From: a virus
Virus record (IMG/VR): IMGVR_UViG_3300030103_003268
Location: 30,477 to 94,476 of that record
Length of the DNA: 64,000 nt
Direction: 5' to 3' (one strand)
Shown here: positions 42,555 to 63,867 of the stretch, one piece after another
Layout: the number at the start of each line of letters is the position of its first letter
Position numbering within the stretch: the stretch's first letter is position 1
Notes under the pieces: generated by a model
The model's input: the letters and a program-made list of their open reading frames with translations, nothing else
What the model was told of the DNA's origin: nothing
The model's database searches: none
Position numbers and translations under genes: made by a program

Positions 42555-42806
42555 TCACATTCCAAACTTTTCTTTGCATCTTTCTCTTGCTTTAGCATAA
42601 TCTTCTTCAGACATTCCGCCTCTTCCAAATTGTTGGTTTAAACGGTCAATACAAGCAAGATAACTTGAAGCATCTAAACTACTTCCCCTCATGGGCTTTC
42701 TTCTGCTTCCGCCCTTGAATCCTCTTGCGCTCATTCCTCTTGCTTTATTCAAATCACCCGAACAACCGCAACCGCATCCTGCTTTTAAAATTTCTTTCCA
42801 ACTCAT
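42555..42806 (-). CDS. Tagged Cys/Gly/Arg-rich small protein
   Basis: 83 residues starting MSWKEILKAG, the tag, followed by CGCGCSGDLNKARGMSARGFKGGSRRKPMRGS, a basic Gly-rich stretch, and a helical end with two more Cys (LACIDRLNQQF...YAKARERCKEKFGM). It overlaps the upstream gene by 4 bases. The composition suits a DNA-binding internal protein that could be packed with the genome. Function unknown. Confidence 0.7.
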   Translation of the reverse strand: MSWKEILKAGCGCGCSGDLNKARGMSARGFKGGSRRKPMRGSSLDASSYLACIDRLNQQFGRGGMSEEDYAKARERCKEKFGM

Positions 42807-43171
42807 TTCTTATCCTCTCCTTTTCCTCTTGGATGAACTAAATCTCGCAATTGGCGATAGAGTAATTCATACTCCTTACGCAACTTCGTAGCGGTGGCTA
42901 CAATATCAATGTTGCGCTCATCCATTGATTTCATTTTCTTATTTAACTTCTTATCTGATTTAATCAGTTCTAATTCTCTAAGAGTAGAAATAAGTTCGCC
43001 TAATTTAGTAAAATCTTGACCAAAAAATTCTGTTGGTTCTGCGGCTTGAAGAGTTTTCTTTAATCTCTTTCTTCCTTTAGCATCTAAAGAATCAAGAAGT
43101 TTTTTAGGCTCTTGTTTCTTCTCCTTTAGAATAAAGTTATCACCTTCACCGTAGTAGTCCCAAGTCATCAT
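42803..43171 (-). CDS. Hypothetical charged helical protein (122 residues)
   Basis: ATG 43171 lies right after GGAGGAAGA in the end of the upstream gene. It begins MMTWDYYGEGDNFILKEKK, where a Trp and an ILK occur but too far apart to count as the tag. The rest is helical and charged (LDAKGRKRLKKTLQAAEP... KLRKEYELLYRQLRDLVHPRG). Probably an internal head or assembly protein. Confidence 0.6.
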   Translation of the reverse strand: MMTWDYYGEGDNFILKEKKQEPKKLLDSLDAKGRKRLKKTLQAAEPTEFFGQDFTKLGELISTLRELELIKSDKKLNKKMKSMDERNIDIVATATKLRKEYELLYRQLRDLVHPRGKGEDKK

Positions 43172-44829: not shown

Positions 44830-44838
44830 TTAAAAACC

Positions 44839-45063
44839 TCAAAAAGGAATATTTTCTTTCTTTCCCCTTTTCTTTGGTGGTAGAAGAATAACATCAGGAT
44901 TATCAGAAGATGTCGGTAAAGCCTTATGTGTAGTATCTTCTGGTAATCCAACAGACATATCACGATTCTTTTTTACCTTATTATTTTCTTGTGCTGTTAA
45001 AGCCTTAATTTGGGCTAACTCCTTAGTCAATCTTCTTTGCTTTTGGTGCAAGTCTTCGCTCAT
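44839..45063 (-). CDS. Small charged protein after the tagged 45060 gene
   Basis: 74 residues: an N-terminal helix (LHQKQRRLTKELAQIKALTAQENNKVKKNRD) and a Pro/Ser tail ending KKRGKKENIPF. The start overlaps the preceding stop by 4 bases. No family recognised. It lies between portal and the large helical protein. Confidence 0.55.
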   Translation of the reverse strand: MSEDLHQKQRRLTKELAQIKALTAQENNKVKKNRDMSVGLPEDTTHKALPTSSDNPDVILLPPKKRGKKENIPF

Positions 45064-45365
45064 ATTTTTTCCTCCAATGTTCCTTGTGTTCTTTCTAAGA
45101 TAGAAATTAAATCTTCTTTAGACATTTGACCGATTCTGTCCATAACCATATCTACTAAATCAGTTCTTGTCATTTCTGCTAATTGAGACATTTCTTCATC
45201 AAACATTGAATCCATATCATCTGTTCTTCCCATAGAAGAAGCAGGTTTTCCACCAGCCATTCTAACCGGAGGCTTTCTTCTTTCAGGACTTCTGCTTCTT
45301 CTATTAGGGTCTAATTCCCTAATAGGTCTAGTTCTCGCTTTGATAATATTTTCCCAATTATTCAT
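45060..45365 (-). CDS. Tagged Arg-rich protein following the portal
   Basis: 101 residues from ATG 45365 (TTG 45374 possible). It begins MNNWENIIKARTRPIRE, the tag in its shifted form, then a basic Arg/Pro stretch (LDPNRRSRSPERRKPPVRM) and an acidic helical end (MFDEEMSQLAEMTRTDLVDMVMDRIGQMSKEDLISILERTQ). It starts 1 base after the portal stop. The bipolar charge suggests bridging between DNA and protein partners. Confidence 0.65.
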   Translation of the reverse strand: MNNWENIIKARTRPIRELDPNRRSRSPERRKPPVRMAGGKPASSMGRTDDMDSMFDEEMSQLAEMTRTDLVDMVMDRIGQMSKEDLISILERTQGTLEEKI

Positions 45366-45366
45366 T

Positions 45367-47308: not shown

Positions 47309-47473
47309 TTAATAGGGTTTCGTCCATAACATCGCCTCATCTATTTTACAAGTTAAACATCTATTTGAAATAATCTCAGTCTTACATCTTCTACAAACGG
47401 TTGCATATCTAATTTTCTTTGGTAGTTTTGTTCTTACCTTATGTTTAAAAATATCATAGTGTTTGCGGGGCAT
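47309..47473 (-). CDS. Small zinc-ribbon protein (54 residues)
   Basis: MPRKHYDIFKHKVRTKLPKK, then CRRC near residues 27-30 and C...C near 39-42 form a zinc ribbon. The ATG overlaps the stop of the upstream basic gene by one base. It carries no tag. Similar short zinc proteins recur across this genome. Function unknown. Confidence 0.6.
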   Translation of the reverse strand: MPRKHYDIFKHKVRTKLPKKIRYATVCRRCKTEIISNRCLTCKIDEAMLWTKPY

Positions 47474-47763
47474 TAACAATTCCACCTTCTTCTGGCGGCT
47501 CTTGCTTTTTCGCTGTAAGTTCCATCTGCTCGCTTAAATCCTCTTGACCTAGCACAAAAAGATTTACGCCTCTTTGCTGCTTTACCGCCAGGTTTTAATT
47601 TACTTGGTTTTTTGGTGACTGGACGCTTTAAATTAGCACCCGTTTCTCTTTTGAATTTAGCACGACCCTTAGCACTTAATCCACCCGTTCTTGCGTGAAT
47701 CTTTTTATTGTAGCCTTTAAAGGGCTTCTTTTTCTTTTTAAGAATATTCTGCCATTCCTCCAT
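47473..47763 (-). CDS. Tagged, highly basic protein with SFCARSRG/SEKARAARRRW signature
   Basis: 96 residues. The tag is MEEWQNILKKKK, followed by HARTGGLSAKGRAKFKRETGANLKRPVT and KSFCARSRGFKRADGTYSEKARAARRRWNC. From memory, this SFCAR...SEKARAARRRW pattern is a small conserved protein found in many marine phages next to packaging genes; no function is known. About a third of residues are Lys or Arg, so DNA binding inside the capsid is plausible. GAGGTGATATA precedes the ATG. Confidence 0.75.
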   Translation of the reverse strand: MEEWQNILKKKKKPFKGYNKKIHARTGGLSAKGRAKFKRETGANLKRPVTKKPSKLKPGGKAAKRRKSFCARSRGFKRADGTYSEKARAARRRWNC

Positions 47764-47772
47764 TATATCACC

Positions 47773-48132
47773 TCAATATGCGGGTCTTCGGAAATCGCTA
47801 TCAGTCGGCATTCTTGGACTTAGGCTTGTTTTCATTCCTTGTCTTGCCTGTTGTGCTTGTTGTTGTCCTTTTTGTTGTTGCCTTTGTGCTTGAGAAATCC
47901 CCCGTTGAATAGTTTGAAGGCCAACAAAGACATTTCCTTGATTTTTAAGATAATTAGTTAGAACCGAAGAATATACGCCTAAAGAACCTTTTGCTTGATT
48001 ATACGCATTTAAATCATTTTGATTTTGAAACTTAATCCCATCAGCAGTAAATTGGGCTTGTTGTTGTCTCCTGCCAAAAAATTTCTCAATATCTTCTGGT
48101 TTCGCTTTTAAAATTTCTTTCCAATCATTCAT
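47773..48132 (-). CDS. Tagged Gln-rich protein (119 residues)
   Basis: ATG 48132 gives MNDWKEILKAKPEDIEKFFGRRQQQ, the tag; GTG 48141 would add MKS. The middle is helical, and the C-terminal third is Gln-rich (QRGISQAQRQQQKGQQQAQQARQGMKTSL). The start lies inside the end of the phosphatase gene (overlap 8 bases). No known family. Confidence 0.65.
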   Translation of the reverse strand: MNDWKEILKAKPEDIEKFFGRRQQQAQFTADGIKFQNQNDLNAYNQAKGSLGVYSSVLTNYLKNQGNVFVGLQTIQRGISQAQRQQQKGQQQAQQARQGMKTSLSPRMPTDSDFRRPAY

Positions 48133-48700
48133 ACTTTTCACCTATCATATAGCCTAATTTTTTTCCTGCTTCAATATCGCTTGGATAATGACTTCCCATT
48201 TGCATTCTTGATAAAGAAATTCTGTCAGCCATTTCTTTAAGTTCTTTCTTCTTATCTGGATATTCCTTTCCTAATACTTTCTCTAAGCCATGGGCAAGCA
48301 TTGAATGTCCACTTGGGAATGCAGGAGTGTCGTCTGTTTTTGTTTTTGTTGTTTGAATCTTGTCTGAAATTTCGTGAGGTCTTGGTCTTTGATATTTCAT
48401 TTTTAAGGAGATAGCATAGTAGTTTATATCCTTCATAAAATCATCATAATCCTTTTTATTAGCATCAACTATTTTAAACATTTCTATTTCTGGTTTCAAA
48501 TCAGAATCTTTCATTTGTTTCGGTGTAAGTTTTTTCTTTTCCATAACACTTAATATAGCAGGTATTTCTGTTTCCTCTTTTGGATAACTCATTTTTGGAA
48601 TATCTAATTTTATTTTTGGACTTCGTTGTAAAATTTTAGTTTTATCCTTTGATAATTTTCCTTGCCAAGTTCTTTTCTTAAGGATAGAAAACCAATTCAT
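48125..48700 (-). CDS. Tagged PAP2-superfamily phosphatase
   Basis: 191 residues. All three PAP2 motifs are present: K100-x6-R107-P108 (KMKYQRPRP), PSGH at 129-132, and SR-x5-H-x3-D at 164-175 (SRMQMGSHYPSD). Catalytic His171 with Asp175 and the phosphate-binding Lys, Arg and His132 are all conserved. There is no membrane segment, so it resembles soluble acid phosphatases rather than membrane lipid phosphatases. The N-terminus MNWFSILKKR is the late-operon tag, suggesting packaging into the virion. It might act on host or viral phospho-compounds upon entry; substrate unknown. Confidence 0.9.
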   Translation of the reverse strand: MNWFSILKKRTWQGKLSKDKTKILQRSPKIKLDIPKMSYPKEETEIPAILSVMEKKKLTPKQMKDSDLKPEIEMFKIVDANKKDYDDFMKDINYYAISLKMKYQRPRPHEISDKIQTTKTKTDDTPAFPSGHSMLAHGLEKVLGKEYPDKKKELKEMADRISLSRMQMGSHYPSDIEAGKKLGYMIGEKYE

Positions 48701-48704: not shown

Positions 48705-49127
48705 TCACCTATTTTCTTCTTTAAATCTTGAACTAGTTTCAGGAACGGGGTTCTTTCCTTCTAATTTTCTTCTTGTTGCTTCGGCACTATTCATATCATG
48801 AATTTGATAAGAGTTTTTATTGTCATCAGGTTCTTCATCTTCTTCAACAATTTGGTATTGATAACTTGGTGCGCCTAATACTTCAAATATTCCTCTATCT
48901 AATACAACACATCTTCCTATGTATTGGTCGCCCATAACAGTCCAAGGTTGAGGATTTCCCCTAGTTCTCATAACATATCTTAAATTTTGAAGTGCGTCTT
49001 CCCTTGTTGGAAAAATAGTTTCTCCATCATCATCTGAAACAGCATTCCAATTACGCATTCTGCTAGTAGCCTCACCCTTTATCATGGCCTTGAAACCATT
49101 CTGCTTGATAACGGATTTCCATGTCAT
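48705..49127 (-). CDS. Tagged hypothetical protein (140 residues)
   Basis: Begins MTWKSVIKQNGFKAMIKGE, a tag with VIK in place of ILK. A compact alpha/beta domain follows (DDGETIFPTREDALQNLRYVMRTRGNPQPWTVMGDQYIGRCVVLDRGIFEVLG), then an acidic, disordered tail. The ATG follows the upstream stop directly (TAAATG). No family recognised; packaged cargo by the tag hypothesis. Confidence 0.65.
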   Translation of the reverse strand: MTWKSVIKQNGFKAMIKGEATSRMRNWNAVSDDDGETIFPTREDALQNLRYVMRTRGNPQPWTVMGDQYIGRCVVLDRGIFEVLGAPSYQYQIVEEDEEPDDNKNSYQIHDMNSAEATRRKLEGKNPVPETSSRFKEENR

Positions 49128-49268
49128 TTACTCGCTTCCTTTTACTTTCTTAACATATTCACGAATTCTTTTGGCCTGACTAGTGTGCATAGCAATTGCT
49201 TTATCTAATTCTTTAGCAATCTTTTCCAATTCGCTTACATCTTGTTTTAGTATTTCTTCCCACTTCAT
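49128..49268 (-). CDS. Tagged mini-protein (46 residues)
   Basis: MKWEEILKQDVSELEKIAKE and a helical, basic remainder (LDKAIAMHTSQAKRIREYVKKVKGSE). The tag makes up one fifth of the protein. The start overlaps the upstream stop (ATGA), and the stop touches the next start. Short but well framed on both sides. A single helix carrying the tag may act as an assembly peptide. Confidence 0.7.
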   Translation of the reverse strand: MKWEEILKQDVSELEKIAKELDKAIAMHTSQAKRIREYVKKVKGSE

Positions 49269-49606
49269 TTTTTCATCCTCTCCGTTTTTCTTTTACTTGA
49301 TTCTTTTCTTGCTAAGGCTACTTTATGTGCCGCATTTAATCTTTTCTTTGCTTCTGGGTCTTTTGCTCTTTTTGCTGCTACCCTTGCTCTTTGTTCAACT
49401 AAATTAATAATTTGTGATTGTCTCTTATGTGGCTTTGATTTAAATGATGAACTTGAAAATGTTTCTCTTACATCTTTTGCAGTTTTGAATTTTACAGAAA
49501 CAGTATCTTTTGGATTTTCATCTGTATATAATCTTCTTGCTGAACCCTTTGGTTTTTTTCCTGTTCCTTTCTTCGGGTCTTTCTTTAAAACATTAATCCA
49601 ATTCAA
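49265..49606 (-). CDS. Tagged basic protein with RLYTDENPKDTVSVKF motif
   Basis: 113 residues from TTG 49606, which overlaps the upstream TGA as TTGA. The tag is MNWINVLKKDPKKG. The rest is basic: GSARRLYTDENPKDTVSVKFKTAKDVRETFSSSSFKSKPHKRQSQIINLVEQR, then a Lys/Arg/Ala helix. I recall the same RLYTDENPKDTV pattern in small proteins of marine phages, function unknown. Likely DNA-associated. Confidence 0.7.
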   Translation of the reverse strand: MNWINVLKKDPKKGTGKKPKGSARRLYTDENPKDTVSVKFKTAKDVRETFSSSSFKSKPHKRQSQIINLVEQRARVAAKRAKDPEAKKRLNAAHKVALARKESSKRKTERMKK

Positions 49607-50130
49607 GGTGAACCCTTCCTTCTTTTATATGTTTTACAAGCAGAACAAGTTGGCCTACATCTTCTTTTGGTTCCTTTAGAAGCGTCCTTTCTTCCACAGG
49701 GCTTTGGCCCACCCTTTGAACCACATGAACCGCAATCAATCCATCCGCCTTGAGTTTTACCACCCTTTGATTCTTTTCCGCCTCTTCTTGAGAACCAACC
49801 ATGAAGTCCTTCGCTTTTTTCTCTTTTGAAATTGTCTCCGCCCTTAAACATTTGGTCATAAAACTTTTGATTTTCTTTTTCACAGTCATCTCTTGTTTGA
49901 AGGATTTCCATAAAGGCTTTACTTTGTTCAGGGTCAAATTCTCCATATTTCATATGAGTGTCAATATAATTATCTAGTTGCTCACAAGATAACCCACTAA
50001 TTCTATTTAATCCGAAGGTAGGCATTTTTCTTTCATCTTCTAAGAAATCTAAGAGTTTTCTTCTAACAACCTCACAACACAATTCATTAGGATTTATCCT
50101 AACATTTTTGAGGATGTTTTTCCAAGACAT
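49603..50130 (-). CDS. Tagged Cys-rich protein
   Basis: 175 residues from ATG 50130 (GTG 50139 possible). Tag MSWKNILKNVRINP, then a helical domain with Cys (ELCCEVVRRKLLDFLEDE, SGLSCEQLDNYIDTHMKYGEFDPEQSKAFMEIL). A C-terminal Gly/Cys/Lys-rich part follows (GGWIDCGSCGSKGGPKPCGRKDASKG...CRPTCSACKTYKRR), probably binding zinc. The GWIDC...GGPKPCGR pattern recurs in marine phage proteins of unknown function. It starts within the end of the next upstream gene. Confidence 0.7.
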   Translation of the reverse strand: MSWKNILKNVRINPNELCCEVVRRKLLDFLEDERKMPTFGLNRISGLSCEQLDNYIDTHMKYGEFDPEQSKAFMEILQTRDDCEKENQKFYDQMFKGGDNFKREKSEGLHGWFSRRGGKESKGGKTQGGWIDCGSCGSKGGPKPCGRKDASKGTKRRCRPTCSACKTYKRRKGSP

Positions 50131-50135: not shown

Positions 50136-50309
50136 TCACTTCTTTTTGGATTTATTTCCCCAGTTTGCTGCACCGACTTTACGGCAACGAACAAGTGCGC
50201 CTGAAGCGTATGCAGAAGGCCATTTCTTATAACGGCTTCGCACCTTATGATAACAGGCATCTTTTTCTTTTTTTAGCATTTCAAACCATAGGGTCGTCGT
50301 ATCTTGCAT
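50136..50309 (-). CDS. Small basic protein with KWPSAYASGALVRCRKVGAANWG motif
   Basis: 57 residues preceded by a strong AAGGAGGAAACAAAG site. It begins MQDTTTLWFEMLKKEKDACYHK, where LWFEMLKK resembles a tag displaced by six residues. The remainder has the RYKKWPSAYASGALVRC pattern seen in many small phage proteins (a DUF5872-like motif by memory). Function unknown. Confidence 0.7.
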   Translation of the reverse strand: MQDTTTLWFEMLKKEKDACYHKVRSRYKKWPSAYASGALVRCRKVGAANWGNKSKKK

Positions 50310-52172: not shown

Positions 52173-53609
52173 TCAAAAGTTCAAGCCTATGGTGGACGAA
52201 AAGCCCTGTTGTGGTCGTTGTGGCTCATCTCCAAACAGCCCTAAATCGTCAAGGAGTATGAAGTTATCCGAGGCTTGGTATGTGGCCGCATTTGCTAAGG
52301 CGAGGCTCATCACCATGTCGTCGTGCGCCCCAATTCCTTCAAACTTCCCTCGTTCAGTAATCGCAAACATTGACAATTCCTCAATCAATAAAGAAGAAAC
52401 CTTTCTACTTTCTTCATTGCCGTATGGGAAGTTAATCTTGCCATTTTCAAGAGACATTTGTAAATTGAGAATAATCTCCTGTTTCTTTCTTCGGGTTGTG
52501 TCAAAGTCATGGACATTCACATCAGCAACTTGACGAAGTTCTTGAGTAAATGATTTAGCGAATGTGTTTGTTTCAAAAAGAATAACTTCGGGCCTAAACA
52601 CTTGATTTAGTAATTTTACCTTTTGGATGTTTTCTCGGAACTGAACATTTTTTGCTCGGTCAATATACACAATAGATTTATTTTCGTTCTCGTCCATTTC
52701 AAGAACAGTAATGACATTGTAATCTCCATCAGTAGAAATAGCAGGGTCTACACCTATGAAGTATTTATATCCTTCACGCTTCAATGGCTTCAAAACCAAA
52801 TCTTTATTCTTTGCATTATCTAAATGTTCGGGATTAAATAGAGATGTTCCAGTTGAAATCGGAACGCACATATATTCCCGTGTGAACATTAATGAACCAA
52901 CTTCTGCCTTACGAGCCATCAATGCTTCGTAGTTCCATCGGTCAGGCCACAACGGTTCGTTTAGTGCATTTAGACAGGGATAAGTATTTACCGTATAAGC
53001 AGGATTTTCTGCTAATTGTTGATAAATATCTGTATAACTAAAAGGCGTTCCAATAACACGCAAAGAAGCGGTGTGGTGAAGTGTTGGAATCATATCACCA
53101 TAAAACCAATCAGTCACTTTTTGAATACCTGTCATACTAAACTCTTTCAAAGGGTCGTCAATAACAATTTCTTGAGGGTGAAGTCCACGAATCTGTGAAC
53201 CAACCGACCTTTCAAGGATTTGGTTTCCATTGGTTAATGTAATGTTTCCAATAGCCCAACCTCTTGCGGGTTTAAATTTCTTAAGCATCGGGTGGGTGAA
53301 CATTTTATCAATGTCTCTCATGTGAACGAGGGTCTGCTTTTGGTTAGAAGAAATGTAAAGCATTTGATATGGTGGCTCTTCAAAAATTAATTTCCATACG
53401 ACCCAACTGTGCATAAATACAGATTTACCGTGGTCGCGTGAACAGATGATAACTGTTCTTTGGGTAGAGTTCATTAATTCGTGCCATTCTTGGATGTAGG
53501 AAGGAAAATCAAAACCTAACACATTTTGAAAGAAATAGGGAAATGAATTGCGGGACAATTGCATATCCATCTCATGTTCAAAATTGAAGGCTTCTAACTC
53601 CATTGTCAT
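52173..53609 (-). CDS. terL: Terminase large subunit
   Basis: 478 residues. The ATPase has a deviant Walker A, CSRDHGKS after RTVII, and Walker B QEIVIDDP, with the coupling motif near VIGTPFSYTD. The RNase H-like nuclease has FIGVDPAIS, VILFETNTF and the late GAHDDMVMSLALAN with paired Asp. Both domains look intact, so it should cut and translocate DNA into the prohead through the portal. The start overlaps the preceding stop by 4 bases. The presence of a full nuclease supports headful or site-specific packaging of concatemers. Confidence 0.95.
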   Translation of the reverse strand: MTMELEAFNFEHEMDMQLSRNSFPYFFQNVLGFDFPSYIQEWHELMNSTQRTVIICSRDHGKSVFMHSWVVWKLIFEEPPYQMLYISSNQKQTLVHMRDIDKMFTHPMLKKFKPARGWAIGNITLTNGNQILERSVGSQIRGLHPQEIVIDDPLKEFSMTGIQKVTDWFYGDMIPTLHHTASLRVIGTPFSYTDIYQQLAENPAYTVNTYPCLNALNEPLWPDRWNYEALMARKAEVGSLMFTREYMCVPISTGTSLFNPEHLDNAKNKDLVLKPLKREGYKYFIGVDPAISTDGDYNVITVLEMDENENKSIVYIDRAKNVQFRENIQKVKLLNQVFRPEVILFETNTFAKSFTQELRQVADVNVHDFDTTRRKKQEIILNLQMSLENGKINFPYGNEESRKVSSLLIEELSMFAITERGKFEGIGAHDDMVMSLALANAATYQASDNFILLDDLGLFGDEPQRPQQGFSSTIGLNF

Positions 53610-55189
53610 TCCTCTTCTTTCTTATTTTGTTCACTTTCTTTTAAGTCTCTCAGTCGTGCCTGTTCCCTATCATCGGCTTCCTTCAAGTTCATTAAGAATT
53701 TTTTGTATTCAACCACAACTGCTTCAATTCTAGCAGCCATTCTTATCTTTTTCTTTTCTTTGAATCCCTTATTTGCTGTTCTTGCATTAATCATATTCTT
53801 TGCGAATTTATCTATTCCAAGAGTTTGCATTTGTTCTAAGTTCTTTAAATGTTCTTTTCTGGTTAATCTAAAGGATTCTCTATCTCCTCGTTCTGTCTTT
53901 ATATCAGCAATTCTAATGCTATTTATCCAGTTTTGATACTCAACTTGTGCTTCTTGGTAGTCTGTTCTTCTCGCAGAAGCCTCAGAAAATCGTGCTTCGG
54001 CCTCTTCTATTCTTTTTTGCCTTGCCTTATCATCCTTTATATGTTCAGAATGGCCCGCATAATCTCCGCCTTCATGTCCCCTTTTAATCCCAGTTCCCCA
54101 AATATCATAAAATGTATTGAAAGAAGACAATGGATAACTCTGAGTAGTTGGTCTTACGCTGTCTAAAAATATTAAAACCTTTTTTAAGGGATTTCTCCAC
54201 ATAGACTTTCTATCAAATTTATTTTTATCTTTGCCTACAATTGGTGAAGAACTACTCAACATATCAGTTCCTTCATTATAATTTTGTGGAAAAGGAGCAA
54301 ATGTAATATAAGCAAAATCTTCGGGATTGTCTGTCAAATAAGCCCAACCCGCAGTTCTAGGACTTGATTCTCTTATTTTATCAGCCAACTCAGGTAAAAG
54401 GTCTGTTCTTTTTGCAGCAGGATGGTCTGCAATTCTTTTACTTTTTGCTCTTACAAGATAATGTGGTCTATAAGCAATATTATGTTCTTTGCTATATTTG
54501 TGAGGATTGTCATTGTCTTTTCTAGCGGTGCTGAGTATTTCAGTTTCATTGTCAGTGTCATCTAACATTGTATTGAATGTGCTATCTGGTAAAATCTTTA
54601 AAATATTTTTCCAAGACTTTTCAAGGGTTTCTTGTTTAAAAAGATTAAACCATGAGGGCGCAGGGTCGTCAAGATAAACACACTTCGCAAACTCACCCTT
54701 TCCACGAATATTACGAATAGCCCAATTACCATTAGGGTATGCACTATTCCATTCATTTACTACTGATTCAGGGAGCAATTGCTTCATTTGTTCCCAATTT
54801 TCACTATCTGGAAAAGCCCATCCATTCTGTTTTGCAGTAGCAATCCAACGAGCATTATCTCCATCCCTGTGTCCAAAAGCAGCAACTAAGGGCTTAGATT
54901 GGTTTAACTGTGGCTCTCTCGCATCTTGTAATGCACGATTATTTCCACCAATCTGCCTTCCTTCGGCAGAAGCATACATTCCACCAACAACAGTATGAGA
55001 AGGATGTTCTTTAAAACCAACTGTTGATATTGCCTTATCTTCATCATTTACACGAATAAGCCAATTGTCTAAAGCATAAAGACCAGTTTCTAAATCCTTT
55101 CTGCGAGTATATGGGTCGTCAGGATTATCCTGAGCAAACCTTCTTTTCATATCTTCATATGAAAAAATCGCAGGAAGAACCTTAACCAT
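53606..55189 (-). CDS. Fusion protein: GNAT-like N-domain, two internal W-tags, helical C-domain
   Basis: 527 residues from ATG 55189. Residues ~30-165 (NWLIRVNDEDKAISTVGFKEHPSHTVVGGMY... LVAAFGHRDGDNARWIATAKQNGW) look like a divergent acetyltransferase-type fold. Then SWFNLFKQ (179-186) and SWKNILKI (192-199) appear in tandem, matching the N-terminal tags of other late proteins. A second domain follows (AYRPHYLVRAKSKRIADHP..., WAYLTDNPEDFAYITFAPFP) and the end is basic coiled coil. The internal tags suggest that tag-bearing genes fused, or that the tag works internally. No catalytic assignment is secure. Confidence 0.65.
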   Translation of the reverse strand: MVKVLPAIFSYEDMKRRFAQDNPDDPYTRRKDLETGLYALDNWLIRVNDEDKAISTVGFKEHPSHTVVGGMYASAEGRQIGGNNRALQDAREPQLNQSKPLVAAFGHRDGDNARWIATAKQNGWAFPDSENWEQMKQLLPESVVNEWNSAYPNGNWAIRNIRGKGEFAKCVYLDDPAPSWFNLFKQETLEKSWKNILKILPDSTFNTMLDDTDNETEILSTARKDNDNPHKYSKEHNIAYRPHYLVRAKSKRIADHPAAKRTDLLPELADKIRESSPRTAGWAYLTDNPEDFAYITFAPFPQNYNEGTDMLSSSSPIVGKDKNKFDRKSMWRNPLKKVLIFLDSVRPTTQSYPLSSFNTFYDIWGTGIKRGHEGGDYAGHSEHIKDDKARQKRIEEAEARFSEASARRTDYQEAQVEYQNWINSIRIADIKTERGDRESFRLTRKEHLKNLEQMQTLGIDKFAKNMINARTANKGFKEKKKIRMAARIEAVVVEYKKFLMNLKEADDREQARLRDLKESEQNKKEEE

Positions 55190-55195
55190 CAAACA

Positions 55196-57691
55196 TCACC
55201 TAAAAGATGCTTTGATTAGATAAACTTGTTCACTACTGATACCATATTCTCTTGAGATATTCTCATGAGAATCAATAGCCTTAACGATTTGTTCAACTTC
55301 AAACGAAGTCAAGTCAATATTATCTTCAACCTGCATCTGAGTAATCATCTTATTAACTCCATAATCGTTCATAGGAATTTGGTTATAAATTACTTTCTTC
55401 CCTAATTCTTCTCTAATGGCATCATGGGCCTTCAATAACTTGTGAAGAAGAACAGGCAAGTCCACTTGAGCAGATTCAAAGATAGCCTTTAATCTATTAT
55501 ATGCTGCCTTTTTAGCAGGACTTCCTTTTGTTAAAATACCTTGGTTCATATCTAACCAATGAGGCAAGGCAAATACAGCGAAGGGTTTTCTAGCATAAAA
55601 ATCTTTAAAGAAGTCTTCACTTCTTTCAACAATGGTTTTGCCCGCAAATTTATTGTTCGCTCTCTTCATATCGCCAGTTTCTTGCATATAATGATAAAGT
55701 AGTGCTGCCGCATAGTTGTCATTCTTTTCTTCTGTTTTGCTTCCGAAAATATTAGTTAATGCATCAGCAAACTCTTCTGCATCACTAATAATTTCAGTTC
55801 CAATCTTAACTTCAGGCATAAAAATACTATCTAAGAAATCAGCAACTGCGTTCATATCACCGACATCAATTTCTTCTCTTGAGCCAGCAAATAAAGTGTC
55901 ATAAGCACCAGACATAACAGTATCTAACCCTAAATCAAGACTTAATGTTTGTATTACCTTTGAACCGATGCCTGATGCAAAAGAGGGCATTTCAATGGGT
56001 AGCATACCACTATAAATAGGGTCAAAATAATATTTAATAGCAGAATCCATCATTTTCTGAAGTTCTTCTTTAAATCCTTGTAGTTCTCCTCTCATAGTTC
56101 CCTTTTGATTTAAAGACAACGGAACAGCCCCACCACTAATTTGACCGACAGTTGAACCTTTACCTTCATAATAATCAAATTGGCTTCCCCTTCCTCTTCC
56201 TTTAGAACTTCTTGCATCAACTTCAGCAATAAAGTCTTCATCTGATAAAATATCATATAAGTCATTAAAAAATTCTCTAATCGCAGGAATATTTTCCGAG
56301 CCTATCATTTCTCCTTCGCCAACAGAACGGAACTTATCTTTATTACCATACATTTTAGCAAATTTAGTGTTATCTAAAACAGAAACAGGTAAAGCCTGAA
56401 CAGGAGCATCTCCTTCACTAAGAATGTGAGTATCAACCGTTTGTTCTAACCATTCTTCAATGTCCACTTGAGTTTCTAAAGAAACCCCCTCTCCCTCGTC
56501 CAAATACTCAATCATATCTTCAAGCATCTCTTTAATTTCCGATTCCATTCTTGAGTTAATGGCTATTAATTTTTCTCCTCTAACATATTCGTAAATTAAT
56601 AGTGGGTCTGCCTGAGAAATAAGTGCATCGTATTCTTCTTCCCAAGTTGTTTTCTGTTGTAATTCTTCTTCCCATTCAGAAACATCAAGGTCAATTGCTC
56701 CGCCTTGGGTGCTACTTCCAGACGCTAAGGAAGATTCAAGATATCTAAGCATTTGAGCATTTACATCTCCTTCCATACCCGATTCATCAGCATATCCAGT
56801 TTGAGAGGTGTCTTTATCCATCATTCGGTCAATAGCCAACTTGTGAACAACAATGTTAAAGAACCTATGATAGCCGGATTCAAATGGGCGAGTGATGTCT
56901 TCAAACTCAGCAATATATTCTAAATTTATACGGCCATCAAGAATTTGTTTATATAGTTTATTAAATTTATTTTGAATTTCTTCAGGGAAGTCAATATTTT
57001 CAACTTCAATAAAGAAATTAGCCATATCTTCTTCAAACTGTTCATAAAGTTTCCCAATTCCTGCCCAATAATTATATACTTTTTTACGGACAGATTTTTT
57101 AGACACATCAGTTGCTCCTAAAAAGTCGTTCATATTAATTTTAAACTCTTTATATTCAGCAACATCTAAAGTATCTTCAAGGGCTTCTTGAATTAATTCT
57201 AAATTGTGTCTAAAGTTTTCAGGCAACTTAACAGCCTTATTTGATACGATTGCATTTATTTCTTGTAGCACATCTTTTCTAGGATTTCTAATATCAATTC
57301 TTCCTTTGATTTTATTACTAGTCAATTGAACAGAAGTAATCCTTGCACCTTGATTATACATATTTAAACGCAAAAATGGCTTAACTACCTCTTCCATGCT
57401 ACTTGAAGCAAGTTCGGTTTTCTTTGCCTTTTTTCCTTTCATTTGTTCTCTAATGTGCTTTCTTGCTCCTTTGGCTTTTCCAGCAATTTTACTAAAAGCA
57501 AGTTTTCTTGCACCCTCTTCTTCAATTAAACGAGCCTTATCCTTTAAGGCATTAGTAAATCTAGTAACAATACTTGCGATTTCTGTTCTTTGTTCTGACT
57601 TATCGGAAAGAGCCAAACCTTCAACTCTTTCGGGAGATAAATTAAGCATTTCCTTTTCTTCTGGAGTTAAAAGTATCGTTTCCTCTGTCAT
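55196..57691 (-). CDS. Large uncharacterised head-region protein (831 residues)
   Basis: Mostly helical with acidic stretches, no Cys pairs, no tag and no membrane segment. It begins MTEETILLTPEEKEMLNLSPERVEGL and ends EYGISSEQVYLIKASFR. Basic patch KGARKHIREQMKGKKAKKTE lies near residues 75-95. It overlaps the upstream gene (ATGA). Its size and position before the terminase suggest an internal core or ejected protein, but I recognise no domain. Confidence 0.6.
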   Translation of the reverse strand: MTEETILLTPEEKEMLNLSPERVEGLALSDKSEQRTEIASIVTRFTNALKDKARLIEEEGARKLAFSKIAGKAKGARKHIREQMKGKKAKKTELASSSMEEVVKPFLRLNMYNQGARITSVQLTSNKIKGRIDIRNPRKDVLQEINAIVSNKAVKLPENFRHNLELIQEALEDTLDVAEYKEFKINMNDFLGATDVSKKSVRKKVYNYWAGIGKLYEQFEEDMANFFIEVENIDFPEEIQNKFNKLYKQILDGRINLEYIAEFEDITRPFESGYHRFFNIVVHKLAIDRMMDKDTSQTGYADESGMEGDVNAQMLRYLESSLASGSSTQGGAIDLDVSEWEEELQQKTTWEEEYDALISQADPLLIYEYVRGEKLIAINSRMESEIKEMLEDMIEYLDEGEGVSLETQVDIEEWLEQTVDTHILSEGDAPVQALPVSVLDNTKFAKMYGNKDKFRSVGEGEMIGSENIPAIREFFNDLYDILSDEDFIAEVDARSSKGRGRGSQFDYYEGKGSTVGQISGGAVPLSLNQKGTMRGELQGFKEELQKMMDSAIKYYFDPIYSGMLPIEMPSFASGIGSKVIQTLSLDLGLDTVMSGAYDTLFAGSREEIDVGDMNAVADFLDSIFMPEVKIGTEIISDAEEFADALTNIFGSKTEEKNDNYAAALLYHYMQETGDMKRANNKFAGKTIVERSEDFFKDFYARKPFAVFALPHWLDMNQGILTKGSPAKKAAYNRLKAIFESAQVDLPVLLHKLLKAHDAIREELGKKVIYNQIPMNDYGVNKMITQMQVEDNIDLTSFEVEQIVKAIDSHENISREYGISSEQVYLIKASFR

Positions 57692-59976
57692 TCTTCCTCA
57701 TCTCCTGTGTCTTTAATGATTCCAAGCCTTTGAAATTGAGTGTTTGCTACGATTACTTTATTGTCTGGGAAATTTTGTGGCTTATTTACAAACTCTTCCA
57801 GACGGGCTTTAAACGCAACAATGATGCTTTCTTTGATATTAGATATAATGCTTGGCATTTTCTTATTTAATTCTCTTGCGGCATCCTTGGCCTCTTGCGA
57901 ATCGGGGTTATCGTCTATGGTCTTAAACGCTTCCCTGACTTCTTCATTTCCAGCCAGTTCATCTACTTGAGCAAAGAAACTAAGGCTTCTTTCGGGAGTA
58001 ATTGATTCTAAAGCGGTGGCTTTGTTTGCCATTTCATCCGCAAGCCCTAAAAGTCCTCCCTGAGAAGACAATTTTTTACCAGTAGATAATAAATATTGTT
58101 CAAAATTGTCCATATTTAATAATTCTTCACGAAGAGCGTCAAGTTGTTGAGTCATATCAATTTGTTCTTTACCTTGTGCTCTTTTTTCTGCTTGTTGAAG
58201 CCGTTGCTCAAGATTCTTAATCTTTTCATCGGCTCGCCGCTTAGATTCTTCTTTTGTTGCTCCTGCTCTTTGTTTTCTAGCAGTAATCAATTTTTCCTTT
58301 AATCCAGCAACCGTTGTTTCTGTTGCTTGTCTTTGATTATCTGAAGTTTCAGCAGTTCTGCCCTTAATGTCTGCCTTGTATGCTTCTTCGGGAGAAATAA
58401 TGTCTCCTTCAACATTAAATACTGCATAATTAGCAAACTGTTTTCCATCTCCTTCAACCGTTAGCATTTGCCCCGACTCATCATATTGTTTATTTCCCTT
58501 TTCATCAAGGTCAGGTGCGATAAACTTTGCTTTTCGCCCATCTTTAAAATACTCCACAGAATATTCATCTTCTTCAGGTTCGGGATTGCCTTCACCTGCT
58601 GGAACTCTTGTTAAACCTGCCGATTTTAAATATTTTTCATAAGCAGTGGCCTCTTTAATTGTAAAATTACCTTCAAGGAATTGTAAAGACTCTCTTTGTT
58701 TCTCTAATGCGGCTTCGCTGATAGAAGTTTCTAATCTATCGCTTTCTTTAATGGTGTTTCTAATTTCAGCAGTAATCTTTTTTCTTGATTTTGTATTAAC
58801 ATCATCAATTCTAAATGGACGGACTCTAATCCCGTCTTTTGTAGTTGTTTCTCCATCAACTAATGCTTGATAAATCCCATCAATGATTTGTTCTGTGGCT
58901 TGTTCTTCTGTAAGGTTCTGTTGGATTCTTAAGGCATCAAAGAAAGGTTTTTCCCATTCATTGGGAAACTCATTTGTCAAAATAATTTGAACAAATGGGT
59001 TCACATTCATTGATTTTGTGCTAGATTTTGCTAAAAATATGACATTTGCGAAGGAAGCACCGTTCTCAAAGTTTTTTGGCTTAAATGCTTCAATACTTCC
59101 AGGAATTTTATTAACTGCTCTAATATATTTTATAACAGACGCGCCAGTAAAGGGTTCAACTATGGCTTTTCTTTCTTGTGAAGCAACAAAAATCTTTTTT
59201 CTGCGAACCATATCATCAACTTCAACAGTTTCGCTACCCGAAACGAACAACATTTTAGTATTTGTCTTACTTCCATCAGGATTTCTCATAATTTTATTGT
59301 AAGTTTTCTTAACTTTGTCTTTTTGCTTAATGGTAGCGTCATCGTCAATGATTTCTTTTGTCTTTTTATTTCTCTTTGGAACCATTAGAGCGACAAGTTC
59401 GCCATTATTCTTTAAATCTGTTAAAATAGAGCCTTCTTTCAGTTCCCCTTCAATTGCTTCGGCAAAATCGGCCAAAAGTTTTTCATTTTGTGGGGGATTT
59501 TCAAACATAATTACAGATTGTCCTGATTTTTCACGCAAAATGTCTAGGGCATCTCTAATATCTCGGTTTCTTTTAAGTGTTCTTGTTGATAAATCAGCAT
59601 TTTGCTCAATATTTTCTAAAATTTCATTGACTTTTTGCTCATCATCGTTTCTTTTGGCTTCCATAGCCTCACGAAGAAGTTTTCTTACATCATCAATTGT
59701 CATAAAACTAGCGGCTTCTTTCAGTTTTTGAACATTTTCTTTCATTTGGTCAAGAGTTTGGTCGCCCATTGGTGGTTTTGAGTAAAGTCTATGAAGTTCT
59801 TCTATATTTAATTGACCTGTTTCTACACTTCTTAACAATTCTTTGAGTTTTTGTGGGGGAGTTTTGAGATTTTGAATGTCCTGAATGGCTTTTTCCATTT
59901 GTTTTGAACTAGCAATAACTAATCCCAGCATCGGTTTATTGACTGGAATCATTTTCAGTTGCTCAAACCAACTCAT
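57688..59976 (-). CDS. Tagged large uncharacterised protein (762 residues)
   Basis: ATG 59976 follows the repeated GGGGAGATTACA leader and gives MSWFEQLKMIPVNKPM, a tag. Earlier in-frame codons up to 60084 overlap the neighbour and lack a ribosome-binding site. The protein has helical N- and C-terminal parts (KEKLITARKQRAGATKEESKRRADEKIKNLEQRLQQAEKRA) around a mixed alpha/beta middle (FVSGSETVEVDDMVRRKKIFVASQERKAIVEPFTGASVIKYI). No enzyme motif recognised. If the tag targets the capsid, this is the largest cargo protein. Confidence 0.65.
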   Translation of the reverse strand: MSWFEQLKMIPVNKPMLGLVIASSKQMEKAIQDIQNLKTPPQKLKELLRSVETGQLNIEELHRLYSKPPMGDQTLDQMKENVQKLKEAASFMTIDDVRKLLREAMEAKRNDDEQKVNEILENIEQNADLSTRTLKRNRDIRDALDILREKSGQSVIMFENPPQNEKLLADFAEAIEGELKEGSILTDLKNNGELVALMVPKRNKKTKEIIDDDATIKQKDKVKKTYNKIMRNPDGSKTNTKMLFVSGSETVEVDDMVRRKKIFVASQERKAIVEPFTGASVIKYIRAVNKIPGSIEAFKPKNFENGASFANVIFLAKSSTKSMNVNPFVQIILTNEFPNEWEKPFFDALRIQQNLTEEQATEQIIDGIYQALVDGETTTKDGIRVRPFRIDDVNTKSRKKITAEIRNTIKESDRLETSISEAALEKQRESLQFLEGNFTIKEATAYEKYLKSAGLTRVPAGEGNPEPEEDEYSVEYFKDGRKAKFIAPDLDEKGNKQYDESGQMLTVEGDGKQFANYAVFNVEGDIISPEEAYKADIKGRTAETSDNQRQATETTVAGLKEKLITARKQRAGATKEESKRRADEKIKNLEQRLQQAEKRAQGKEQIDMTQQLDALREELLNMDNFEQYLLSTGKKLSSQGGLLGLADEMANKATALESITPERSLSFFAQVDELAGNEEVREAFKTIDDNPDSQEAKDAARELNKKMPSIISNIKESIIVAFKARLEEFVNKPQNFPDNKVIVANTQFQRLGIIKDTGDEEE

Positions 59977-59993
59977 TGTAATCTCCCCTGTTT
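59973..59993 (-). repeat. Leader-plus-tag repeat, copy 4
   Basis: Minus strand: AACAGGGGAGATTACAATGAG, a diverged copy of the GCAGGAGAGATTACAATG module found three more times within 1 kb. It contains the ribosome-binding site and start codon of the 762-residue gene. Confidence 0.75.
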
Positions 59994-60304
59994 CACATAC
60001 CCATCCTACTATAATAAGAGGTATCAAGATGGAAATGTCCACCACCAAAATCGACGATATACCCAAATTGCTTAACTCTATCAATGTCGGAATTAAATTT
60101 CGCTCTCGTATCTAAAAGTTTTTTATAGAGTTCAATAAACTTATCAGAAGAAATGTTGTTTTCCATATCCTTAATCAAATTCATAAATCCTTTGCGGTCT
60201 TGGGGTGCAAGTTTATATGCCATTTTTTCAAAGGACTTTTCTAACTTAGCAACAAGTGTGTTTCTTTTGGCTCTTTCGTTTTTTAAGATAATTTCCCAAC
60301 TCAT
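59993..60304 (-). CDS. Tagged helical protein (103 residues)
   Basis: MSWEIILKNERAKRNTLVAK, then basic helices (EKSFEKMAYKLAPQDRKGFMNLIKDMENNISSDKFIELYKKLLDTRAKFNSDIDRVKQFG) and a His-containing end (IVDFGGGHFHLDTSYYSRMGM). It lies between copies 3 and 4 of the repeat module. No family recognised; short cargo candidate. Confidence 0.65.
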   Translation of the reverse strand: MSWEIILKNERAKRNTLVAKLEKSFEKMAYKLAPQDRKGFMNLIKDMENNISSDKFIELYKKLLDTRAKFNSDIDRVKQFGYIVDFGGGHFHLDTSYYSRMGM

Positions 60305-60321
60305 TGTAATTTCTCCTGCAT
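60301..60321 (-). repeat. Leader-plus-tag repeat, copy 3
   Basis: Minus strand reads ATGCAGGAGAAATTACAATG plus A, one mismatch from copies 1 and 2. It carries the start of the 103-residue gene, with further similarity into the tag codons (AGTTGGGAA...). Confidence 0.85.
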
Positions 60322-60512
60322 CAATCTAAACTTTGGTCTGTTGCATCAATTGTTATTGTTTTACCAACCAATTTCTTAATTTTTCCATCCAATACTAAGG
60401 CGACCATTTCTCCCGTATCAGCAATTGTTAAACTACCCGAAACACCTTTTTGGGAAGAACCATCGTCGTAATTTAGAACTAATTTATTTTTTAATATATC
60501 TTCCCAACTCAT
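60321..60512 (-). CDS. Tagged small beta protein (63 residues)
   Basis: MSWEDILKNKLVLNYDDGSS, then alternating strands (GVSGSLTIADTGEMVALVLDGKIKKLVGKTITIDA). The tag is a helical tail on a small beta domain. It is flanked by repeat copies 2 and 3 and is therefore a neat cassette. Function unknown. Confidence 0.65.
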   Translation of the reverse strand: MSWEDILKNKLVLNYDDGSSQKGVSGSLTIADTGEMVALVLDGKIKKLVGKTITIDATDQSLD

Positions 60513-60529
60513 TGTAATCTCTCCTGCAT
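60509..60529 (-). repeat. Leader-plus-tag repeat, copy 2
   Basis: Identical to copy 1 over 21 bases (GCAGGAGAGATTACAATG core). Here it is a non-coding leader before the 63-residue gene; in copy 1 the same bases encode the end of the upstream protein. Confidence 0.9.
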
Positions 60530-60952
60530 TTATGGCAATTTTATCTGATTGATGGTTTCCACAATTTTTCTTTGAAGTTCTTCAGTTATTTCATCCACCC
60601 AATCGTATTTATTCCGATACATCCAACCGGAATCCCAATTTCCATTTCTCCTACTAACAGTAAATGTTGGCTTAAGCCCCCACCTTCTATTGGACTCTGC
60701 TGGTAATTTAGTGAATCTAACATATGCCTTAATATGTTCATCTTCTTTTTCTTCTTCTGGATAAAATGTAAGTTTAATGTCAATTAGCATATTGCCTCGT
60801 TTTGTCCTTTTATTAACTTCTAGTTCCCCATAAGGGTTTAAACGGGGCTTATTGGGAGTGTTACGATATTCTTCAATAAGAGAGTTGATTTTATTTTTTA
60901 TTGGTTCAATAAGTAAAGTAAGTTCTTGTTTCAATATATTTTTCCAAGTCAT
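60530..60952 (-). CDS. Tagged hypothetical protein (140 residues)
   Basis: MTWKNILKQELTLLIEPIKN, then an alpha/beta domain (GNMLIDIKLTFYPEEEKEDEHIKAYVRFTKLP, TFTVSRRNGNWDSGWMYRNKYDWVDEITEELQRKIVETI). Its start overlaps the stop of the small-terminase candidate (ATGA). It is flanked by repeat copies 1 and 2. No family recognised. Confidence 0.65.
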   Translation of the reverse strand: MTWKNILKQELTLLIEPIKNKINSLIEEYRNTPNKPRLNPYGELEVNKRTKRGNMLIDIKLTFYPEEEKEDEHIKAYVRFTKLPAESNRRWGLKPTFTVSRRNGNWDSGWMYRNKYDWVDEITEELQRKIVETINQIKLP

Positions 60953-60969
60953 TGTAATCTCTCCTGCAT
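60949..60969 (-). repeat. Leader-plus-tag repeat, copy 1 (coding end of small-terminase candidate)
   Basis: The same 21 bases here encode the last residues MQERLQ and stop of the 60949-61614 protein, while also serving as ribosome-binding site and start of the next gene. This is probably the original junction from which the other copies were duplicated. Confidence 0.9.
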
Positions 60970-61614: not shown

Positions 61615-61615
61615 A

Positions 61616-61864
61616 TCAATCATCCTTTAATTGGTCTAAATATTTTTGATATTGAGCAATTTTCTTTTTACAATGTTCTTTAATGTATTTAATGTCTTTT
61701 TGAACTTCTACATCGCTTCTTTGTTCATCATTCATACCCATAATATGCTCAACATAATTGTTAAATTCATTAGGGGTGTCGCCCATTGAACCCCAAAATT
61801 TACTTTTAGAATAAATAGGGTGATAATTTTTTTTACTAAATTTCTTTATTTCATCTTTCCACAT
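61616..61864 (-). CDS. Tagged small protein (82 residues)
   Basis: MWKDEIKKFSKKNYHPIYSK is a shortened tag (Trp at position 2, as in 29489). The rest is helical and basic (VEVQKDIKYIKEHCKKKIAQYQKYLDQL). GGAGAGAGTAAA precedes the ATG. The stop overlaps the region before the zinc-finger gene. Function unknown. Confidence 0.6.
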   Translation of the reverse strand: MWKDEIKKFSKKNYHPIYSKSKFWGSMGDTPNEFNNYVEHIMGMNDEQRSDVEVQKDIKYIKEHCKKKIAQYQKYLDQLKDD

Positions 61865-61865
61865 T

Positions 61866-63029
61866 TTACTCTCTCCATAAAAGTTGTTGCCACATTTTAG
61901 AAATAACCTTTTGATTAGGATTCAATTTAAAATCATCATCTTGATATGTTTTTGGATATTTTTCTCTTGCTGTTTTTCTATAATCAAAACCAGTCTTTCT
62001 ATCATTTTGCCATGCTCGGAAACCATTCGGTGCTTTGTTGGTATTTTTTCGCTTTAGGGCTCTATCAACTAAATTTATGATAGGTAAAGCAGTAAGTGTA
62101 ATTCCAGTAACTGTTCCAGTTAAAGAATCCTTTTTTCCTTCTTCGCCCAAGTTGCTTACCCTTCTTGCTAGTGATTGTTCTTTAGCATTAGGCTTAATTT
62201 GAAAGTTTGTGGCTTTTAATTCAGAACGAACCTTATTTGTGAGTAGCCTTCCTCCAGCATTCCAGTAGGTATTACTACGAACAATTTTATTAAAAAATTC
62301 TTCAACAGACCGAATACCATCAACTTCACCATCAAATTGTGGAGGGATTCTCTCAACCTCAACTTCAATTTCCATATCATCAAGGTCTTCTACTGCTTGC
62401 TTCATAATCCACAAAAGACCTCTAGGATTCGCAAACTTTGTTTTAACTTTTGAGAATAATGCTTGATGGGGAGGATTTCCTCCCTCAAAACCATCAATGT
62501 TAATAACATGGGCTAACCATTCATCGGGAACTTTTGTTACGCCTTTATTTCTTTTAGCATACCATTCTGTCGCATAATGTCCTTGAACTTTACGGGGTCT
62601 TTTCTTTTGACCTGTTTTGGTTTTATCAACCTCAGTAAAAAGAATAAATGCGGGGTCACGCGCTGGCCCTTTTCCACCAGCATCGTCACCTTCACGGTAA
62701 TAACTTTCTAATGTTTTTGCTTGTTCTTTAATAATTTCCTCATGCTCACCATCAAACAAATCATTATCAACAATTGCTTCAATAAATTCAATAAACTCAA
62801 TAGCGCCTTCACCATCACGGCCCTTGTTTCTACTTCCGGCACGAATGTTGTTCATCATGTGGGTTTTAAGAAACATATACAAATTAGGAACATTCTTAAC
62901 CTGCATGGCTGCGCCTGAAATACCTTGACAGGTCTGCCTCCAAGTGTTAAATTCGTTCACAAACTTAAACTCAGTTTGATTAACTTTATTTCCTTTATGG
63001 GGCTGAAAGTTCTTTTTCTTCTTACTCAT
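61866..63029 (-). CDS. Hypothetical protein (387 residues)
   Basis: Basic start MSKKKKNFQPHKGNKVNQTEF, a central alpha/beta part (GAIEFIEFIEAIVDNDLFDGEHEEIIKEQAKTLESYYREG, WYAKRNKGVTKVPDEWLAHVINIDGFEGGNPPHQALFSKVK), a short hydrophobic stretch (TGTVTGITLTALPIINLVDRAL) and the end VISKMWQQLLWRE, which might be a C-terminal variant of the tag. It overlaps the metallopeptidase gene by 8 bases. Family not recognised. Confidence 0.6.
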   Translation of the reverse strand: MSKKKKNFQPHKGNKVNQTEFKFVNEFNTWRQTCQGISGAAMQVKNVPNLYMFLKTHMMNNIRAGSRNKGRDGEGAIEFIEFIEAIVDNDLFDGEHEEIIKEQAKTLESYYREGDDAGGKGPARDPAFILFTEVDKTKTGQKKRPRKVQGHYATEWYAKRNKGVTKVPDEWLAHVINIDGFEGGNPPHQALFSKVKTKFANPRGLLWIMKQAVEDLDDMEIEVEVERIPPQFDGEVDGIRSVEEFFNKIVRSNTYWNAGGRLLTNKVRSELKATNFQIKPNAKEQSLARRVSNLGEEGKKDSLTGTVTGITLTALPIINLVDRALKRKNTNKAPNGFRAWQNDRKTGFDYRKTAREKYPKTYQDDDFKLNPNQKVISKMWQQLLWRE

Positions 63030-63867
63030 CCTTCTTCCTCCGCTTCTTTCTACCCCTTACCACCTTATTAAACATAGCGGGGGCTGATGTCGTGCTAACT
63101 GCACCAGTCATTTTAAGTTCACTATCATTGAAAGTAATACTGCTGTTAGGAAATTTATCAGCCGCCTTTAGTTTCTCAAAGAAATTTTTGTGCTCTTTAC
63201 CATATCTCTTAAGCCAAGTATTGATGTTATCAGGCTCTATTACTGCACTAAAGGTTTCTCTTGGTTTCTGTGTTCTGGCTGTCACTTCAAGTTTTGCTAA
63301 TTTATTCTTAATTTTATCCTTAATAACGGCATTAACATTTAACGAATCTGTCAAGACTTCCGCCCATGCCACAAACTTGGTTAAATCATCAATAGATTCT
63401 TTTTCTGCTGTGCCTTTAATATTGAGTATATTTGCTAACATGGGAGGAATAACTCTCGTTCTTACGGCGGGGTGTTCTAAATATGACCTTATTCTATAAA
63501 AAATATTATCAGGGAATTGCCCAGTAAAAGCACCATATTCCTTTGCTGCGTCATCCATTGGTAATTGGTCTAATCCCATGGCCGCATGTGTCGCTTCGTG
63601 CATAATTGCTCTAACAACAAATTCTTGGATTTCTCTCTCAGTTGGTTCTCTTTCTAGTTTTTCCTTAAGATAATCATATATTTTTACATGATTGATTCTT
63701 ATTTCCTCTTCCATCAAATCTTTCAAAGCAGGAGCCTTTCCTGCCAAAATAGAATTAAATATTTCCTTAGAGTCTATTGGCGCGCCCGAAATGCCATAAT
63801 GCCCAAAACCCCGAATATCTTTATCAAAGTCAATATCCTCAACTTTAAGAATACTAAACCAAGACAT
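63022..63867 (-). CDS. Tagged zinc metallopeptidase-like protein
   Basis: 281 residues from ATG 63867, which follows GGAGGAATAATC (earlier codons up to 63894 overlap the neighbour). Tag MSWFSILKVED. The zinc motif H90-E91-x-x-H94 (IMHEATHAAMG) with a downstream Glu110 (AAKEYGAF) fits a gluzincin-type peptidase. The remaining sequence is helical, ending in Arg/Lys (RGRKKRRKKDE). If packaged, it could act on host envelope proteins or virion proteins. Peptidase activity is inferred from the motif only. Confidence 0.7.
   Translation of the reverse strand: MSWFSILKVEDIDFDKDIRGFGHYGISGAPIDSKEIFNSILAGKAPALKDLMEEEIRINHVKIYDYLKEKLEREPTEREIQEFVVRAIMHEATHAAMGLDQLPMDDAAKEYGAFTGQFPDNIFYRIRSYLEHPAVRTRVIPPMLANILNIKGTAEKESIDDLTKFVAWAEVLTDSLNVNAVIKDKIKNKLAKLEVTARTQKPRETFSAVIEPDNINTWLKRYGKEHKNFFEKLKAADKFPNSSITFNDSELKMTGAVSTTSAPAMFNKVVRGRKKRRKKDE

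Follow-up and report, generated by a model that had tools for sequence, protein, structure and literature searches.

A Short Tryptophan Helix on Unrelated Late Proteins and a Protease/Scaffold Tail: A Candidate Cargo-Loading Tag in an Uncultured Virus

Encapsulin cargo-loading peptides are short, terminal and bind inside an HK97-fold shell, which encloses a non-viral compartment. The internal proteins of T4 are a highly diverse set in which the capsid-targeting sequence (CTS) is the sole common part (PMC3012670). The CTS packages foreign proteins (PMC10229621), and a further account of this precedent is available (PMC5694885). Cargo fused to the coat-binding element derived from the P22 scaffold is built into the procapsid (PMC9962691), and the C-terminus of the herpesvirus scaffold binds to the major capsid protein (MCP) (PMC12474303). 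In phage P1, a reporter that bears the N-terminal 30 residues of DarB enters the capsid, and the same study found no consensus in the Dar proteins (PMC9024508).

A 64,000-nucleotide stretch of DNA (the window), which corresponds to positions 30477-94476 of a 94,476-base IMG/VR virus record, was analysed in the present work. Many of its late proteins begin with the same eight residues, roughly M-S-W-K-D-I-L-K. No prior description of this tag was found in the open literature, subscription journals being outside the search. The preferred reading, with a probability of about 0.75, is that the tag is a portable helix that recruits cargo into the assembling prohead by copying the tail of the scaffold.

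The Tag and Its Distribution among Late Genes

Comparison of the tagged starts gave the consensus [M]-[S/N/T/K/D]-W-[K/E/Q/F]-[D/N/E/S]-[I/V]-[L/I]-K. The initial annotation had listed 17 tagged late proteins, and all 17 N-termini were found where it had placed them. Fifteen of these tags were genuine (starts at 63867, 60952, 60512, 60304, 59976, 50130, 49606 with a TTG start, 49268, 49127, 48700, 48132, 47763, 45365, 42806 and 29489). The start at 61864 (MWKDEIKK) was shifted in register by one residue and is therefore ambiguous, its homologues being uninformative. The start at 47294 (MSWKQLKEGIL) was rejected because its Trp is part of a domain, W-x-x-L-K-x-x-I-L-N-D-E-[L/V]-P, that recurs elsewhere, away from starts. 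The earlier list lacked a tag close to the N-terminus of the 50309 protein (MQDTTTLWFEMLKK), a pair of copies within 53606-55192 (SWFNLFK and KSWKNILK) and the C-terminal versions that end the protease/scaffold and its 81-aa neighbour at 42304-42549. An extra tagged gene lies beyond the window (G000:1260). Three other candidates were discarded: a TTG match at 36349, which falls within the MCP; a supposed TTG start at 50291, where the actual codon is CTA; and a ribonucleotide reductase (L151), the apparent tag of which was judged to be internal sequence of that enzyme. The features are collected in Table 1.

Table 1. Coordinates of tagged proteins and of related head-module features in the window.
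Feature	Coordinates	Strand	Evidence
Tagged protein, 281 aa, MSWFSILK	63022..63867	-	Tag kept in 3/3 body-found homologues
MWKDEIKK, ambiguous tag	61616..61864	-	N-terminus read
Tagged protein, 140 aa, MTWKNILK	60530..60952	-	N-terminus read
Tagged protein, 63 aa, MSWEDILK	60321..60512	-	N-terminus read
Tagged protein, 103 aa, MSWEIILK	59993..60304	-	N-terminus read
Tagged 762-aa protein, MSWFEQLK	57688..59976	-	W3, K8 invariant in family
GNAT-like domain, two internal tags, fused C-terminal part	53606..55192	-	Profile scan, fold search
Internal tags of 53606..55192: PSWFNLFK; KSWKNILK	54635-54658; 54596-54619	-	
57-aa protein, tag at residues 7-13 (MQDTTTLWFEMLKK)	50136..50309	-	L353 homologue start: MWFEELKK
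Tagged protein, 175 aa, MSWKNILK	49603..50130	-	2/2 homologues tagged
Tagged protein, 113 aa, TTG start, LNWINVLK	49265..49606	-	13/19 homologues tagged
Tagged peptide, 46 aa, MKWEEILK	49128..49268	-	N-terminus read
Tagged protein, 140 aa, MTWKSVIK	48705..49127	-	N-terminus read
Tagged PAP2-family phosphatase, 191 aa, MNWFSILK	48125..48700	-	PAP2 E 5e-12; 21/23 homologues tagged
Tagged protein, 119 aa, MNDWKEILK	47773..48132	-	N-terminus read
Tagged basic protein, 96 aa, MEEWQNILK, DUF6321	47473..47763	-	E 3e-14; 22/27 homologues tagged
Tagged protein, 101 aa, MNNWENIIK, adjoins portal gene end	45060..45365	-	24/30 homologues tagged
Tagged Cys-rich basic protein, 83 aa, MSWKEILK	42555..42806	-	8/8 homologues tagged
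81-aa coiled-coil-like head-module protein, tail DWSDIHKMV (42319-42345)	42304..42549	-	C-terminal motif form
S78 prohead protease/scaffold fusion, tail DWADIHKMV (37573-37599)	37558..38793	-	Pfam S78, W400 invariant, model
Predicted nested scaffold, 232 aa, internal RBS + ATG, motif at end	37558..38256	-	SD in 75/76 homologues
Major capsid protein (SU10-like), candidate receptor	36185..37546	-	
Tagged zinc-ribbon-like peptide, 67 aa, MWKNIIK	29286..29489	-	N-terminus read

The importance of the tryptophan was evaluated by residue swaps in the search pattern. In the window, Trp gave 13 matches, whereas any other residue gave two or fewer. In the relatives, Trp gave 703 distinct proteins in 238 body families and any other residue 10 families or fewer (only 7 for Phe and 3 for Tyr), where families were formed by BLAST single linkage and merging of remote homologies would lower the counts. 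The bodies behind the tag had been described as unrelated. The 908 distinct tagged proteins fell into 282 BLAST clusters with hyper-diverse bodies, most of which were rare or family-singletons. Although the window cargo is mostly basic, a pI above 8 was found in only 39% of the tagged families; hence, charge is not diagnostic of internal proteins that bind DNA. A profile search of the 762-aa family against PDB sequences returned nothing significant.

The enrichment expected at the starts of late genes in related genomes was also present. The tagged ORFs in 80 TerL-bearing relatives lay on the late strand in 604 cases and on the opposite strand in 5. With a looser DNA pattern applied to 23 near-complete relatives, there were 309 late-strand matches, 6 on the opposite strand and 2 for the reversed-pattern control. 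Moreover, of the Trp residues that lie within the first 12 positions of late proteins, 64% scored as tags, compared with 2.2% of internal ones; some of these internal hits were mis-called starts. No plus-strand (early) ORF of the window carried the tag, in agreement with the earlier statement that early-operon proteins are without it. The genomes held about 10-26 tagged genes each, and these genes surrounded TerL and the portal in the late region. Between TerL and the tagged cluster, the protein encoded on the minus strand at 50340-52163 has a LAGLIDADG-like segment, FIDSDGYI, and its length differs from relative to relative, which suggests a homing-endonuclease-like part. On the plus strand, the protein at 4992-8710, which we take to be PolB-like, is split into ORFs 4992-6680 and 7817-8710 with a small ORF between them, and its matches are likewise split in G003, G018 and G019.

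The tag is demonstrably conserved at the level of protein. The Leu position was encoded by all six Leu codons as well as by Ile and Val codons, Ser by AGT, TCT and TCA, and Lys by both of its codons; the use of all six Leu codons indicates that selection acts on the protein. In the 762-aa family (24 members with 21-85% identity), W3 and K8 were among only 9 invariant columns. Homologues found through their bodies usually retained the tag, as given for 45365, the PAP2 phosphatase, 47763 and 42806 in Table 1. It is hardly credible, then, that the common start acts as DNA or RNA, for instance as a translation enhancer or a recombination site: synonymous codons vary freely while the residues do not, the codon variety contradicts an explanation at the DNA level, and some copies of the motif lie at C-termini or inside proteins, not near a start codon. 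What speaks for such a feature is a CAGGAGAGATTACA block upstream of many tagged genes, which could aid cassette recombination. This block precedes many tagged ATGs (e.g., 60952 and 60512 in the window) and, together with the tag, may help gene cassettes to recombine. At another locus (L209, G018:82734-87180), neighbouring tagged genes have a common extended start, ILKNIQIS[S/G], which suggests recent copying of the tag plus a linker.

The position of some tagged genes allows for a structural role. Some tagged families, those of 45365 and 42806 among them, recur as conserved genes in the interval from portal to MCP, as would be expected if the tag marked external or structural parts of the head and tail (decoration, neck) and not internal cargo. 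This is very unlikely, since most tagged bodies are rare or family-singletons and the recognised structural proteins are never N-terminally tagged; the number of N-terminal tags among homologues of TerL, portal, MCP, ligase and protease was 0.

The Scaffold Tail and the Portable Copies of the Motif

A version of the motif was found at the end of two untagged head-module proteins. The S78 prohead protease, assigned via Pfam, ends in EMDWADIHKMVGGNL, and its 81-aa neighbour at 42304-42549 ends in SMDWSDIHKMVSKME, so that both proteins have a common conserved terminal helix motif, M-[D/S]-W-x-[D/E]-[I/V]. Nearly all proteases of the relatives terminated in a variant of this tail (such as EMSWDEINEMV, EMSWGDIHNFI or ELSWEEVNALV), and W400 was invariant in 50 aligned proteases. 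A profile was built from the N-terminal tags and used to scan the untagged proteins of the window (17,531 positions). KSWKNILK, a perfect copy inside 53606-55192, ranked first, and the protease and 81-aa tails ranked second and third, which demonstrates the match of the tag to both tails. In the protease model, the overall confidence of which was low (pLDDT 60), the S78 domain was accompanied by long helices at 180-207 and 304-384, and a linker led to a terminal helix at 400-407 that started at W400; the helix that precedes this linker had 81 residues. A 975-aa ATP-dependent DNA ligase at 38838-41765 on the minus strand adjoins the protease gene within the head-gene module.

W-x-[D/E]-[I/V], together with the residues ahead of it, is common to the N-terminal tag and the tail of the scaffold. 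The +4 position of the tail is His or Asn instead of Leu or Ile, and the +5 position often differs, which means that the receptors of tag and tail may differ. An in-frame ATG at the protease/scaffold boundary was preceded by a Shine-Dalgarno-like sequence in 75 of 76 homologues, compared with 25% of internal Met codons; the scaffold half of the protease is probably also made alone from this internal start. In the N-arm of the MCP (36185-37546), an [LI]LK element at 37457-37471 was conserved in nearly all relatives, with length-variable linkers on either side, and could be a cleavage or docking site.

The partner of the tag and tail may be other than the MCP. The outcome would again be packaging if both bound the portal or another core protein, as the conserved tagged genes adjoining the portal (45365) and the T4 precedent, in which proteins join the scaffold core by means of the CTS, would allow. 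We regard this as unlikely: the terminal scaffold helices of herpesviruses and P22 bind to the coat protein, and the tail here is the very end of a long helix in the protease model. Furthermore, an amphipathic helix also fits binding to a membrane or a hub, and a PAP2 phosphatase is among the tagged proteins, so the tag might send proteins to a membrane, a replication site or an assembly site within infected cells and not into virions. Such a destination is quite unlikely, considering that both the prohead protease/scaffold and a second protein of the head module terminate in a close version of the helix and that the tag is essentially limited to late-strand genes. Recruitment into the prohead remains the preferred reading.

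The motif was demonstrated to be portable. It had been presented as an N-terminal tag; this is its usual position, but C-terminal and internal copies exist, and the tag is not strictly N-terminal. The N-terminal domain of 53606-55192 occurs in some relatives as a stand-alone protein of 168-190 aa with the tag at its end (DWFNMLKRRN, GDWFNLIKIR and EKSWHLILKRY), and other relatives have varied domains in frame after the tag. In the model of this domain (pLDDT 86.5), the tag formed a separate, low-confidence C-terminal helix at residues 181-188. The fold search assigned the domain to the GNAT acetyltransferases (probability 1.00, TM about 0.5), whereas its profile search against PDB sequences gave nothing significant. 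Further C-terminal copies were KKSWFDILRV and LKSWMDILRN. In a count with a loose C-terminal pattern, Trp was not set apart from other residues; hence, the evidence for C-terminal copies is the profile scan together with the conserved families.

Range among Relatives and the Proposed Mechanism

The observed phylogenetic range of the tag is bounded. Both tag and tail were present in a 71% relative. A 57% relative (L444) had the tail, with no tag within its 15.9 kb of sequence. Some portal-bearing fragments had no tag nearby. Neither tag nor tail was found in L448, a distant virus in the Poseidoniales assembly AG-422-I20 (portal 43%). No tags were found at 20 loci of Druskaviridae portal relatives, including HVTV-1 and HCTV-5, nor in the isolate or named relatives searched (HVTV-1, HCTV-5 and vir335), and the HVTV-1 protease was without the tail. 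As far as fragments allow, this range is consistent with a tail that came first and was later copied onto cargo. The AG-422-I20 assembly supports a Poseidoniales host for the wider virus group.

According to the proposed mechanism, the docking helix would be [S/T/N/D cap]-Trp-[K/E/Q/F]-[D/N/E]-[I/V]-[L/I]-Lys, usually on a free end. The scaffold would be the C-terminal half of the S78 protease, which ends in the variant helix M-[D/S]-W-x-[D/E]-[I/V]-[H/N], as does the 81-aa coiled-coil-like neighbour. If herpesvirus and P22 are a guide, the scaffold tail would most likely dock on the inner face of the MCP. Cargo that carries the helix, usually at the N-terminus and otherwise at the C-terminus or between domains, would join the core beside the scaffold and stay in the head. 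From this arrangement, we infer a receptor shared by tag and tail, the MCP as that receptor, packaging of the tagged proteins and their delivery into the next host. The wider proposal, in which a docking code common to scaffold and cargo loads an exchangeable payload of more than 200 families that is probably delivered to Poseidoniales, is favoured with some reserve.

If this reading is true, the payload that such uncultured viruses bring to abundant marine archaea could be listed from sequence, as a W-helix at either end of a protein would predict its packaging. For Poseidoniales, a host group without genetics, this would yield candidate effectors or counter-defence proteins by the hundred. 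Moreover, the tag would provide a natural loading tag of eight residues for protein cages.

Comparison with Described Loading Systems

The protease/scaffold resembles herpesvirus UL26/UL26.5 in that a protease is fused to a helical scaffold with an internal in-frame start and a conserved C-terminal tail; lambda C/Nu3 is a further protease-scaffold system with this arrangement. The protease here is of the S78 type, unlike UL26, and the tail motif is also carried by hundreds of cargo proteins. The short terminal peptide on the cargo recalls the encapsulin systems, with an SU10-like MCP in the present case. Loading is engineered in P22, whereas here it would be natural and would use a helix of eight residues that is mostly N-terminal. 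Compared with P1 DarB, the consensus is sharp here, and none was found among the P1 Dar proteins.

The tag also resembles the T4 CTS, in which about 10 N-terminal residues are common to unrelated, fast-evolving accessory proteins (IPI, IPII and IPIII). The order of N-cap, aromatic, polar, acidic and hydrophobic residues is the same in IPII/IPIII (MKTYQEFIAEA) and IPI (MKTFKEF). The aromatic residue is Tyr or Phe in T4, whereas the Trp here is essentially irreplaceable and is followed further on by an invariant Lys. No conserved residue or cleavage site was found after the tag in the tagged families, unlike T4, which has a Glu at its cleavage site; the invariant Lys of the tag could itself be part of a protease site. 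In addition, C-terminal and internal copies exist here, and each genome has about 10-26 tagged genes, compared with a few in T4. The initial annotation had taken the motif for a capsid-targeting tag by parallel with T4. The targeting part has good indirect support in the tail match at the protease/scaffold and 81-aa ends, in the late-gene setting, in the diversity of the bodies and in the CTS-like residue pattern. Homology to the CTS does not follow, since the aromatic residue and the Lys differ and no conserved cleavage site was found, so that the tag would be CTS-like in its working and descent from the CTS is not supported. The N-terminus of the T4 scaffold gp22 (MLKEQLIAEAQ; L220, AF158101) resembles IPII/IPIII MKTYQEFIAEA (L222), a likeness due in part to the E-type cleavage site that lies in each. 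A further difference from the T4 CTS is that a version of the motif is shared with the scaffold tail here, which, if the present reading is true, suggests that capsid-targeting sequences could arise by copying the terminal docking helix of the scaffold, a route to which T4 gp22 is relevant.
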